Shown piece by piece: positions 2,642 through 14,459 of a stretch of DNA of 22,631 nt (within the stretch, counting starts at the first letter, position 1; each line of letters starts with the position of its first letter). Source of the DNA: a virus. Under the pieces are notes generated by a model, which searched no databases, had not been told where the DNA came from, and saw nothing but the letters and a program-made list of their open reading frames with translations. The stretch is from positions 1 through 22,631 of IMG/VR virus record IMGVR_UViG_3300046010_003851; one strand, written 5' to 3'. The position numbers and the translations under genes are program-made.

Positions 2642-4247
2642 GTTCTTCTGGTGTGAGATGCTTTCGTGGTGTGTAGTCGAGTTGAACGATCTCATAGAAT
2701 TTATCATTTTTCTCGCTCGGCTTTACCTTGATTCTTTTTGGTCTATTCCAATGATCGCATTCTAACAATGCTTCCTCAGTAGTGTTGGCATTGGCACCAA
2801 GTGCTGGCTTGCGCTTGATGTAACGCTCGGCGGCATAACCACCGTGATCCGGGCAGAGCCACTCTGAAACCTTGATTAGACCGCAATAATAGGTCACGCG
2901 GATGCTATCTGGCTTTCCCTCCTTGTGCCAGCGGGAATAGCCTACATCAACAACTTCAGCCCATTCGGCTTGTACCTGGGTCGAGATCATGGCCCCACTA
3001 TAGGCTCGATTTCCGTGGTTGAGAACAGGTGGCGGGAAAGCGTAACCGCAGACAACACAATTCCGCATTGCGGCATGTTGGATGGTCTGGCAGCTAGGGC
3101 ATTCCTTGCATGGTGCTTCGCCATCTTCGGCCTTTCCTTTGATCTTCGGCTTCACCTTGTCAATGAATCCATGACGGATCACATTGTCGCCGTAATCCAT
3201 CACAAGGCAATCAACCTTTCCGGGAGCAATGCGAGTGCCTCGTCCGACGATCTGGACGTATAATCCTGCGCTCTCGGTTGCTCGTACTATGCCGATCAGA
3301 TCGACATGTGGCACATTGAAGCCCGTTGTCAGCACGTTGACGTTAATCAGACACTTGAATTCCCCGCGCCGGAACCGCTCGATCTTGTCGGTTCGCTCTG
3401 TCATGCTATCAGCCCCAGTCACGACATGGGATTCAATGCCGTGCGCTTGGAATTCATCGCGTAGCATATTGGCATGAACTACACCGCAAGCGAAGATCAG
3501 CCAAGCGCGGCGATCTGCACCATAAGCCACGATTTCGGCCACGGTTTCTTTTACCAGTTCTGGATCGGATGCCGCCTTGGCAAGCTCGCTTTCAATGAAC
3601 TCTCCACCTCGATGACCGACCTCGGAGAGATCGATCTTGCGTGCGCCAGCCTTGCTAATAACTGGAGCCAGGAATCCTTGCTCCATGAGGTCAGCAACTG
3701 GAATGTCATAGGCTATGCCATCAAAGATGGCTCCTTCCCCCTTATGGAGCCAGCCGCTGTCAAGCCGATATGGCGTTGCCGTGAGGCCGACGATCTTCAC
3801 GCCGGGATTCGCAATCTTGAGATCGGTGAGAAACTTGTTGTAGCGCGTACTATCCGTGCGCGGAATAAGATGGCATTCGTCTACGATCACAAGGTCAGGA
3901 GCCGGGACCATATCAAACGCACGCTTGTGAATCGATTGAATGCCAGCAAAGGTTATTGATCGGTCTAGTATCTTCTTCTTGAGGCTTGCACTGTAGAAAC
4001 CTACATCGGCCTCTGGGTAAAGGTTAAGCAGTTCCGCTGCATTCTGTTCAAGAAGTTCCTTGACATGCGTCAGCATCAAGACGCGCGTTCCGGGAAACGA
4101 CATTGCATCCTTGACCAGATGCGCGATGATGAGGCTCTTGCCTGATCCAGTCGGTGCGACGATCAATGGGTTGTCGCCTTTCTTGCTGGCCCAGTAATCA
4201 TACAGGCCATCGATGGCGGAGCGTTGATAGGGGCGGAGGTCAAGCAT
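2613..4247 (-). CDS. DEAD/DEAH-box SF2 helicase
   Basis: A 544-residue superfamily 2 helicase. RPYQRSAIDGL (5-15) is the Q-like entry motif, APTGSGKS (31-38) Walker A, VDECH near residue 120 Walker B, and GLTATPYR motif III. QIVGRGTRIAPGK near residue 336 is motif VI. A Cys-rich segment (CKECPSC...NCVVCGY, around 375-400) is probably a zinc ribbon, followed by an uncharacterised C-terminal domain. It would unwind DNA using ATP during replication or recombination. The start at 4245-4247 is chosen because MLDLRPYQ is a typical family N-terminus; it overlaps the transporter stop by 8 bases. A 15-residue longer start is possible but would lie deeper in that gene. Confidence 0.92.
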   Translation of the reverse strand: MLDLRPYQRSAIDGLYDYWASKKGDNPLIVAPTGSGKSLIIAHLVKDAMSFPGTRVLMLTHVKELLEQNAAELLNLYPEADVGFYSASLKKKILDRSITFAGIQSIHKRAFDMVPAPDLVIVDECHLIPRTDSTRYNKFLTDLKIANPGVKIVGLTATPYRLDSGWLHKGEGAIFDGIAYDIPVADLMEQGFLAPVISKAGARKIDLSEVGHRGGEFIESELAKAASDPELVKETVAEIVAYGADRRAWLIFACGVVHANMLRDEFQAHGIESHVVTGADSMTERTDKIERFRRGEFKCLINVNVLTTGFNVPHVDLIGIVRATESAGLYVQIVGRGTRIAPGKVDCLVMDYGDNVIRHGFIDKVKPKIKGKAEDGEAPCKECPSCQTIQHAAMRNCVVCGYAFPPPVLNHGNRAYSGAMISTQVQAEWAEVVDVGYSRWHKEGKPDSIRVTYYCGLIKVSEWLCPDHGGYAAERYIKRKPALGANANTTEEALLECDHWNRPKRIKVKPSEKNDKFYEIVQLDYTPRKHLTPEERAELLEPLF

Positions 4248-4764
4248 TGGCGGCTTTATTATTATGCCATGTCCACAAAAACGCAGCGGCAATGACTGTC
4301 ATCCACACCTTACCCAGCAGCTGCCCGCCCATGAACTCCAGCGAACCGAAGGCTAGCCACAGGAACGCCGCCGAGTCTGCAACAGCACCTACCACGCCGG
4401 AAGCTAGCACGGCCAGCGGCAAATTACGCTTCCGCAGCGGAGTGTAAACCGCGAGGTCCATCAACTCAGCGATGCCGAAGGCCACCGCCGAAGCGATTAC
4501 CAGCGCAGGAGGGGCAACCAGGATTGACAGCACCACGCCTGCCGCAATGGCCGCGAATGCCCACCGGACGCCCAGCAACTGCTGCACCGCATCACGCAGC
4601 ACCAGCGCCGCGCCAATCATCAGAACACCAGACGGGGCAGACAAGCCAAACCCTACCGGAACGAGGCACGGGCCGTTTGGAACGCAGAAAGTCCCGACAT
4701 TGCCAATTAGCCAGTTAGCCAACGGGATGGTTGCGAGATAAGCAAGGAAGACTGCAATTCTCAT
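4240..4764 (-). CDS. yhhQ: VUT/YhhQ-family queuosine precursor transporter
   Basis: A 174-residue, highly hydrophobic inner-membrane protein with about five to six predicted membrane segments. It carries family-like features: ANWLIGNVG, SAPSGVLMIGAALVLRD (an Arg-Asp pair at a segment end), AFGIAELMDLAVYTPLRKR and VADSAAFLWLAF. YhhQ/VUT proteins import 7-deazaguanine precursors (preQ0 or preQ1). It starts at the ATG 4762-4764, overlapping the stop of the DpdA-like gene as ATGA; a start 12 residues upstream would run into that gene. Its direct coupling with a DpdA-like enzyme supports a role supplying the base for phage DNA modification. A role in host tRNA queuosine supply is the alternative. 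The gene symbol is by family only. Confidence 0.85.
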   Translation of the reverse strand: MRIAVFLAYLATIPLANWLIGNVGTFCVPNGPCLVPVGFGLSAPSGVLMIGAALVLRDAVQQLLGVRWAFAAIAAGVVLSILVAPPALVIASAVAFGIAELMDLAVYTPLRKRNLPLAVLASGVVGAVADSAAFLWLAFGSLEFMGGQLLGKVWMTVIAAAFLWTWHNNKAANA

Positions 4765-5441
4765 GCGATGAGTTCCATTTGTTCTGGTTGGGTTTTCCAT
4801 TTAATTGGACATTGCACGGCATCAATGACGCGAGCCATTGCCTCGGGGCAGGAGTTCGTGTCTTTGTAGTTTCGGGCCACGTTCACGCTATCAACGCTTG
4901 CAAATGGCCACCGCTTTCCAGCTACTGCCATGCCTCTAAGCATATGTATCCACGGAATCGGACCACGACGTCCAAGTTCGTTGAATGCCTCATCAGTTCG
5001 CCTGCACCATGCGTCAGACCCCACTTGCCAATAGGCACCGGATGAGCCGAAGCAGACCTTTGGAAACTCCTGTGCGAAGTCCAAAAGGGTTTCGAAAGGT
5101 TCAGCCATGTGCCACACAGGTGCGCCAAGTTCTTTGCGATGCGGCCACTCTTTCACCAGATGAGCGTTGTCTTCCACATCGCCGTCAATAACGTCAGGGA
5201 TAACTGCCCAATGCGGATGACCAAGGCGGTTTTCAAGCCAGCGATAGTATCCTGTCCAATCCACGGCCTTGCCCTTGGTAAACAAGCTGAACGCGCCGTT
5301 GTCCCACATCACGCTTTGGCCGATCCGCAGGCAAATATCAGCATCTGCGGGATTAGCATATGAAACGCAAAAATTCTTTCCAGCCATGAGCCACAACTGG
5401 TCACGCGGCGTCAGTGGCGTGCCATGGTAATGGACTGTCAC
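4761..5441 (-). CDS. dpdA: DpdA-like DNA 7-deazaguanine transglycosylase
   Basis: A 226-residue protein resembling phage DpdA, a TGT-related enzyme that swaps guanine in DNA for a 7-deazaguanine base. TGT-like landmarks are WDNGAF (D47, compare DSGGF/DSGAF), PDVIDGD (D83, D86, D88), CFGSSG (130-135), HMLRG (166-170) and FASVDSVNVARN (D184). The typical TGT zinc cluster CxCxxC is absent, and the protein is short compared with tRNA TGTs. The GTG start at 5441 overlaps the nuclease stop (GTGA). The next gene is the preQ0/preQ1-type transporter, ATGA-coupled, which strongly supports the assignment. Which residue is the nucleophile, and which base is inserted, cannot be told from sequence. A nucleic-acid-unrelated role is unlikely. 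Confidence 0.78.
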   Translation of the reverse strand: MTVHYHGTPLTPRDQLWLMAGKNFCVSYANPADADICLRIGQSVMWDNGAFSLFTKGKAVDWTGYYRWLENRLGHPHWAVIPDVIDGDVEDNAHLVKEWPHRKELGAPVWHMAEPFETLLDFAQEFPKVCFGSSGAYWQVGSDAWCRRTDEAFNELGRRGPIPWIHMLRGMAVAGKRWPFASVDSVNVARNYKDTNSCPEAMARVIDAVQCPIKWKTQPEQMELIA

Positions 5442-13154: not shown

Positions 13155-14459
13155 ATGTCTGCGAGCAAGAAAGATAAATCCAATAATCTTCAGATTGTAT
13201 ATCGCCCCATCGAATCCTTGATCCCATACGCCCGCAATAGCCGAACTCACTCCGACGCCCAGGTGGCGCAGATCGCAGCATCTATCAAGGAATTCGGCTG
13301 GACCAATCCCGTCCTGATCGACGCCGAGGGAGGCATCATAGCGGGCCACGGGCGCGTCATGGCTGGCCGCAAGCTCGGCATCAAGGAAGCCCCGTGCATC
13401 GTTCTTGACAACCTCACAGAGGCACAGCGCCGCGCCTATGTTATCGCTGACAACAAGCTGGCGCTAAATGCCGGATGGGATATAGAGCTGCTCAAGGTGG
13501 AACTTGGCGATCTCCAAGCGCTCGACTTTGACCTGAGCCTCACCGGATTTGATGCAAGCGAACTTGGCAACCTGTTGGCCGAGAAAATAGAAGGACTCAC
13601 CGATGAAGACGCAGTGCCGGAAACGCCTGCCCGCGCTGTCACAGTGCTGGGTGACGTGTGGGTGCTCGGCAAGCATCGGCTGATGTGTGGTGACAGCACG
13701 TCGGTGGACGCGGTGGACAAACTGATGGCGGGCTGCAAGGCCGACATGGTTTTCACGGACCCGCCCTATGGAGTCGAGTACCAGTCGAACATGCGCACAA
13801 AGTCCCAGAAGTTCGATGTGCTGGCAAACGACGACCAGTTCTTGGACATTACGCCGATTGTTGAAATGTTCTCCACGGGGTGGGTGTTTGTCTGGACGAG
13901 CTGGAAAGTCCAGACAAAGTGGATTGAGATGTTCAGCGGGTTCGGATACCCAACAAATATCGTTATTTGGCACAAGCCAGGTGGCGGCATTGGCGACCTG
14001 AAGCGCACCTTCAGTAGCGACTACGAGGTCGCCCTTGTGTGGCACCGTGGCGCTGAACTGTGTGGCAAGCGCATCGGTTCGGTGTGGACAATCAACAAAG
14101 ACGGCGCGTCCACCTACGTTCACCCGACACAGAAGCCGGTCGCCCTGTCCGAGGAGGCGCTGGACAAAACCACCCGGCGCGGCGCGGTCGTGCTTGACCT
14201 GTTCGGCAGCAGCGGCAGCACGCTGATCGGCTGCGAAAAGACCAATCGCCAAGCCCGCCTGATGGAACTGGACCCCAAGTATTGCGACGTGATCGTCAAA
14301 CGCTGGCAGGACTTCACCGGCCAGAAAGCCACGCTGGAATCAAACGGCCAGACATTTGAGGACGTTGCCACCTCACGCTACGACTGGGAGAAGGACGCAT
14401 CCGGATCTTACACCGATGCAATTGCAGCCAAGCGTGCGGAACTTGAAGCATCCAGATGA
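13155..14459 (+). CDS. ParB-like / DNA methyltransferase fusion
   Basis: A 434-residue protein. Residues 13-130 are a ParB/Srx-type domain: RPIESLIPYARNSRTHS, GGIIAGHGR (59-67), DNKLALNAGWD. The C-terminal part is an amino-methyltransferase with motif IV DPPY (202-205), HPTQKP (323-328) and the AdoMet motif DLFGSSGS (348-355). This order is typical of the beta class, which methylates adenine N6 or cytosine N4. This fusion is common at the head of phage packaging modules, where it may protect phage DNA from restriction. The ribosome site is weak. The stop overlaps the TerS start (ATGA). The specificity of the methylation site cannot be read from sequence. Confidence 0.92.
   Translation: MSASKKDKSNNLQIVYRPIESLIPYARNSRTHSDAQVAQIAASIKEFGWTNPVLIDAEGGIIAGHGRVMAGRKLGIKEAPCIVLDNLTEAQRRAYVIADNKLALNAGWDIELLKVELGDLQALDFDLSLTGFDASELGNLLAEKIEGLTDEDAVPETPARAVTVLGDVWVLGKHRLMCGDSTSVDAVDKLMAGCKADMVFTDPPYGVEYQSNMRTKSQKFDVLANDDQFLDITPIVEMFSTGWVFVWTSWKVQTKWIEMFSGFGYPTNIVIWHKPGGGIGDLKRTFSSDYEVALVWHRGAELCGKRIGSVWTINKDGASTYVHPTQKPVALSEEALDKTTRRGAVVLDLFGSSGSTLIGCEKTNRQARLMELDPKYCDVIVKRWQDFTGQKATLESNGQTFEDVATSRYDWEKDASGSYTDAIAAKRAELEASR

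Follow-up and report, generated by a model that had tools for sequence, protein, structure and literature searches.

A phage transporter and DpdA-like transglycosylase pair as a candidate salvage-only system for DNA 7-deazaguanine modification

The locus and its two genes

We analyzed a linear viral record of 22,631 bp (the window), itself a fragment of a genome. Its minus strand contains a run of genes for a Sak4-like annealase, an SSB-like protein, an HTH-like protein, a Cas4/YqaJ-type exonuclease, a DpdA-like enzyme, a VUT transporter, a helicase and a VRR-NUC-like nuclease, the SSB-like and VRR-NUC-like identities being our own reading. Our analysis concerns the following features of this run:

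5441-4761, minus strand: DpdA-like guanine transglycosylase, 226 aa, GTG start at 5441
4764-4240, minus strand: transporter of the VUT/QPTR (YhhQ, COG1738) family, 174 aa, ATG start at 4764
4761..4764, minus strand: ATGA overlap, formed by the VUT ATG (4764-4762) and the DpdA stop TGA (4763-4761), as read in the sequence

An earlier note on this DNA had placed open reading frames with an ATGA overlap at 4240-4764 and 4761-5441. The coordinates were right, and the strand, which it had not given, is minus; the plus-strand frames across 4240-5441 are rich in stops. The DpdA-like gene begins with a GTG that overlaps, as GTGA, the stop codon of the exonuclease gene before it, and the helicase ATG (about 4247) again lies on the VUT stop. 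Because of these start/stop overlaps, the exonuclease, DpdA-like, VUT and helicase genes are probably translationally coupled. Both genes of the pair evolve under purifying selection, with dN/dS of about 0.03-0.2 where dS is unsaturated.

The assignment of the larger product to the DpdA-like transglycosylases, also made in the earlier note, was borne out by profile matches and conserved aspartates. The protein matches phrog_887, "queuine tRNA-ribosyltransferase" (E 8.6e-45), and an HMM of its family (163 sequences) recovers the DpdA1 of phage 9g, a proven enzyme (E 2.7e-10), along with relatives at E values to 2e-15 (Rinkes, Rosebush-like). When 3,528 other ORFs were scanned with this HMM, no unrelated match came before E 0.99, and the match at 0.0022, in L143, is a DpdA-like gene that also neighbors a transporter; host tRNA TGTs gave no significant match. 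The enzyme had no match in Pfam, its TGT family included, or in NCBIfam, and none to NF041059 (bDpdA) or the PADLOC Dpd models, by which the locus does not qualify as a Dpd island.

The predicted catalytic residues are D47 (DNGAF), D83 (PD) and D184 (DS), equated with those of TGT by the order of the motifs. Within the family, D47 and D83 are conserved in 163 of 163 members and D184 in 157. Four of the 163 have Gly in the D184 column, in place of the predicted nucleophile, and may be inactive or misaligned. The CxCxxC zinc motif of tRNA TGT occurs in none of the 163 members and is likewise missing from the phage DpdA1 proteins checked.

The earlier note had proposed HMM and structure searches of both proteins. 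The AF2 model of the enzyme, computed with 57 relatives, is a confident TIM barrel (pLDDT 91.5). Foldseek against viral predicted structures matched it to phage queuine tRNA-ribosyltransferases (best E 2.8e-8) and, at E 1.1e-3, to an uncharacterized protein from the DpdA2 phage nt-1 of Vibrio. The fold search of the PDB returned generic TIM barrels only and the PDB sequence search no relevant match. A profile-profile comparison of the enzyme family with host tRNA TGT alignments, which were of low diversity, found nothing, and the link to TGT thus depends on the DpdA1 intermediates and the published HHpred result for MED16 (PMC8306585). Overall, the analyses support the enzyme as a homologue of proven phage DpdA, and the window enzyme is predicted to insert a 7-deazaguanine into DNA.

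The second product had been named a VUT/YhhQ-family transporter, and the name holds at the level of the family: the protein passes the Pfam PF02592 cutoff (39.2 vs. 27.2 bits) and has six long predicted membrane helices (AF2 model pLDDT 94.7), though it stays below the cutoff of NCBIfam TIGR00697 "queuosine precursor transporter" (37.7 vs. 50.95 bits). Its match to PRK11212 (E 1.1e-4) is also far below the cutoff, and it matches phrog_4899 at E 1e-37. Given the score under the TIGR00697 cutoff, we named the protein by genomic context and not as an equivalog. The fold search of the PDB gave only a weak, nonsignificant likeness to ECF S-components (e.g., biotin). Escherichia coli YhhQ (QPTR, COG1738), a preQ0/preQ1 transporter with proven preQ0 uptake (PMC5372724), belongs to the same Pfam family and has six helices, but the phage-type transporter forms a separate, shorter subfamily with only a weak equivalog match.

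Pairing of DpdA and transporter across viral loci

With the enzyme as the sole query, IMG/VR yielded 186 relatives. We retained the best 80, and in every one of them a transporter lies on the same strand, no more than 2.5 kb from DpdA. The transporter as query added 72 loci, and the DpdA family of the window is present at 61 of these. At ten of the other 11, the neighboring gene is of another DpdA/TGT-like family (phrog_15826 at nine loci and phrog_1279 "queuine tRNA-ribosyltransferase" at L117), and the remaining locus, L130, is cut off. As a synteny control, we used 54 diverged loci, each with at least 1 kb on both sides. Within 1 kb of DpdA, the transporter was present in 54 of 54, the helicase in one and the exonuclease in none. 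The adjacency of DpdA and the transporter is far beyond chance. On the same counts, we rejected the recombination operon, in which the earlier note had placed the two genes, as a part of the system.

Gene order is variable, with dpdA first in 59 loci and vut first in 21, and the transporter subclade changes too. Transporter identity drops as low as 33%, whereas DpdA identity remains at about 60% or higher, and between the two proteins the distances are only weakly correlated (r 0.31). With this correlation and the changes of order and subclade, co-inheritance was rejected as the sole cause of the pairing. Because gene order and transporter subclade vary, the pair seems to have formed anew repeatedly, and such re-assembly is stronger evidence for joint function than shared descent gives. 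The pair occurs in differing phages, among them the cultured Pam5 (Pseudanabaena) and Rhizobium phage RHph_N3_2, as well as RHph_X2_30 (Casjensviridae), Opt-719 (Drexlerviridae) and Flyfo Tbat1_6.

Two variants of the arrangement were seen among these loci. A phrog_15826 gene takes the place of DpdA beside the transporter at L104, L105, L106, L116, L129, L143, L146, L148 and L149; it carries D-x-G-x-F and APDV motifs and matches the window weakly (E 0.0042), and from motifs, position and this weak match we infer it to be a DpdA/TGT-like enzyme. In Caulobacter phage DMCA (L161, 9708-10729), a short gene annotated as 6-carboxytetrahydropterin synthase (QueD) directly precedes a window-family DpdA, and we detected no transporter in the region examined; the QueD-annotated gene is possibly an alternative partner of DpdA.

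Precursor genes and transporter cargo

The salvage-only reading of the earlier note started from the lack of synthesis genes in the window. As the window is a linear fragment, that argument is weak on its own, and we searched for QueC, QueD and FolE in viral records, most of which are fragments as well. The window itself lacks QueC, and FolE was found in none of the 33 records searched, the window included. A contig of 33,464 bp, whose sequence is the same as that of the window across 15.4 kb or more, carries no QueC, QueD or FolE. In 49 related viral records, three of them deposited as complete genomes, neither QueC nor QueD was found. Together with the FolE count, this supports the salvage-only reading, and the absence of synthesis genes is strong but not complete.

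In genome loci with a window-family DpdA, a transporter adjoins the gene in 17 of 80. Of 50 host genomes tested, queC was missing from 6 of the 17 whose prophages bear the transporter and from 0 of the 33 whose prophages lack it (Fisher p 8e-4; p 0.0098 for alphaproteobacteria only). Five of the six queC-lacking genomes are metagenome assemblies, and for isolates alone the contrast is not significant (p 0.25). The pattern is as expected if the transporter made the phage independent of preQ0 synthesis in the host, but we consider it suggestive only.

The cargo of the transporter was studied by running its profile on 298 genomes of one bacterial order, that of Ensifer genome G002. The phage-type subfamily stood apart as 36 hits of at least 223 bits, with the remaining members scoring no higher than about 103 bits. 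Each of the four bacterial DpdA genes in these genomes has a transporter of this subfamily within 5 kb, with a chance of about 3e-4 per gene, and QueC adjoins the transporter at the same four loci. At three other loci, the subfamily lies beside a QueF-type gene, confirmed as QueF-II in two and assigned by clustering in the third. QueF acts on preQ0. Since the subfamily is found in Dpd islands and beside queF, whose substrate is preQ0, the neighboring queC, queF and dpdA genes point to preQ0 as the most likely cargo.

We observed alphaproteobacterial Dpd islands with the phage-type transporter beside QueC and bDpdA at L243, L244, L245, L293 and L294. The order in Devosia (L243) is DpdB, DpdA, DpdB, QueC, VUT and DpdF, with two copies of DpdB; L245 is from Microvirga, and L293 has QueE and QueD in addition. 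YhhQ is reported from about 9% of bacterial Dpd islands (PMC11888242).

Proposed function and competing readings

We interpret the pair, with a probability of about 0.7, as a minimal salvage-only cassette for DNA 7-deazaguanine modification. The transporter, in the inner membrane of the host, would import preQ0 (7-cyano-7-deazaguanine), and the DpdA-like transglycosylase would exchange selected guanines of the phage DNA for it in a TGT-type base exchange, with D184 as the nucleophile, D47 as the general acid/base and D83 in base recognition, as the roles in TGT suggest. Because the phage makes no precursor, the base would be environmental or host-made, and the transporter should free the phage from the need for a host that makes preQ0. 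Modification would affect few sites, and the benefit would probably be evasion of some host defense. Family membership, motifs, recurrent pairing, the absence of QueC, QueD and FolE, and the association with Dpd islands and queF are the observed basis of this interpretation; DNA as the substrate, rather than RNA, is deduced. Several points weigh against it: modification levels measured for family members are very low and close to those that a side reaction could produce, the transporter scores below the cutoff of the NCBIfam QPTR model, the host queC contrast comes mostly from metagenome assemblies, and most viral records are fragments.

The level of modification can be judged from two phages that carry distant members of the window-enzyme family, lack synthesis genes and were analyzed by LC-MS (PMC8306585, PMC6884629). 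Signatures of the modification in sequence composition are, in our judgment, uninformative. In virion DNA, dADG makes up 0.13% of G in Pantoea phage MED16 (PMC8306585) and 0.02% in Salmonella phage 7-11 (PMC6884629), and in MED16 it did not visibly hinder the restriction enzymes tried (PMC8306585). The MED16 homologue is 35.7% identical to the window enzyme (E 4e-30). Modification of DNA by enzymes of this family is, by this comparison, likely. The expectation of the earlier note that some guanines would be replaced and restriction blocked was not supported as stated, given the low levels in the relatives and the lack of visible protection by dADG in MED16. A stronger form of our interpretation, in which a sizeable share of guanines is replaced and resistance to restriction is broad, could draw on 9g-type phages, which have synthesis genes and about 25-30% of G modified, on CAjan, which requires dpdA for modification and protection (PMC6884629), and on import lifting the precursor level. 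Dense replacement with broad resistance is not supported for the window enzyme family, although no transporter was found near dpdA in the two phages measured, and we consider this form doubtful.

If the substrate were instead host or phage tRNA, the transporter would boost the precursor for tRNA modification and translation during infection. TGT homologues do act on tRNA, and a Q boost has been proposed for phages with synthesis genes and no DpdA (PMC6884629). A TGT gene is present in all 20 host genomes searched, which cuts both ways, as a host TGT already covers the tRNA task. The profile of the enzyme family picks up phage DpdA1 but no host TGT, the zinc motif is missing as in DpdA1, the modification of MED16 and 7-11 is in DNA, and bacterial copies of the transporter subfamily lie in DNA-modifying Dpd islands, which makes action on RNA unlikely. 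Ordinary conserved synteny, by which the genes would hitchhike without joint function and the transporter carry another nutrient, would suit the name of PF02592, "putative vitamin uptake transporter", and the varying substrate specificity of COG1738 (PMC11130926, PMC5372724). It is hard to reconcile with a transporter kept in the 54 diverged loci while other neighbors were lost, with swaps of gene order and transporter subclade, with enzyme partners replaced by other DpdA/TGT-like families, or with bacterial transporter copies accompanying QueC, QueF and DpdA, and we regard it as very improbable.

Parts of the proposed cassette are found in known systems. Phages 7-11 and MED16 (DpdA/TGT_1 cluster) share the homologous enzyme and the lack of synthesis genes (PMC6884629, PMC8306585), but no transporter was found by their dpdA and the base is presumed to be host-made. 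Enterobacter phage EC151 and Seuratvirus have a VUT transporter and DpdA in one cluster, but with a full folE-queD-queE-queC pathway and an enzyme of the DpdA1 type that is about 307 aa long (PMC8310023). Bacterial Dpd islands place the same transporter subfamily by a DNA guanine transglycosylase (L243, L245, L293 and L294), but their bDpdA, at about 430 aa, contains a zinc motif and is accompanied by DpdB and restriction genes (DpdF) (PMC11888242), none of which the phage pair has. A survey of 2019 listed 76 phages with DpdA and no synthesis gene, leaving the source of the base open, and found that YhhQ did not correlate with particular groups of phages (PMC6884629). Practically all loci of the DpdA clade analyzed here have the transporter, and import would be the answer to that question.

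Phages with YhhQ, phages with DpdA only and the supply of preQ0 by the host were already known, while a recurrent synthesis-free module of transporter and DpdA with exchangeable enzymes appears undescribed in the literature searched. A paper from 2023 is said to describe further DpdA subfamilies. A broader proposal, which we put at somewhat below even odds, is a mobile module in which the transporter is constant, at least three transglycosylase subfamilies (phrog_887, phrog_1279 and phrog_15826) are exchangeable, and environmental base is used for DNA modification in hosts that do not make preQ0. If the import reading is true, the DNA chemistry of a phage would depend on an environmental micronutrient, and the phage could modify its DNA inside hosts unable to make preQ0. 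For phrog_4899 and phrog_15826, whose functions are listed as unknown, the analyses also suggest roles.

Two other genes of the window may relate to nucleic acid modification. The minus-strand gene at 803-1651 encodes a PP-loop PAPS-reductase-like protein (phrog_424, E 4e-57; PADLOC SspD, E 3e-13), and RHph_N3_2 and RHph_X2_30 are also annotated with a "putative PAPS reductase"; a link to another nucleic acid modification is possible. On the plus strand, the translation of 13155-14459 reads as a protein with a ParB-like domain and a DNA methyltransferase-like part, which may provide a second DNA modification in this phage.
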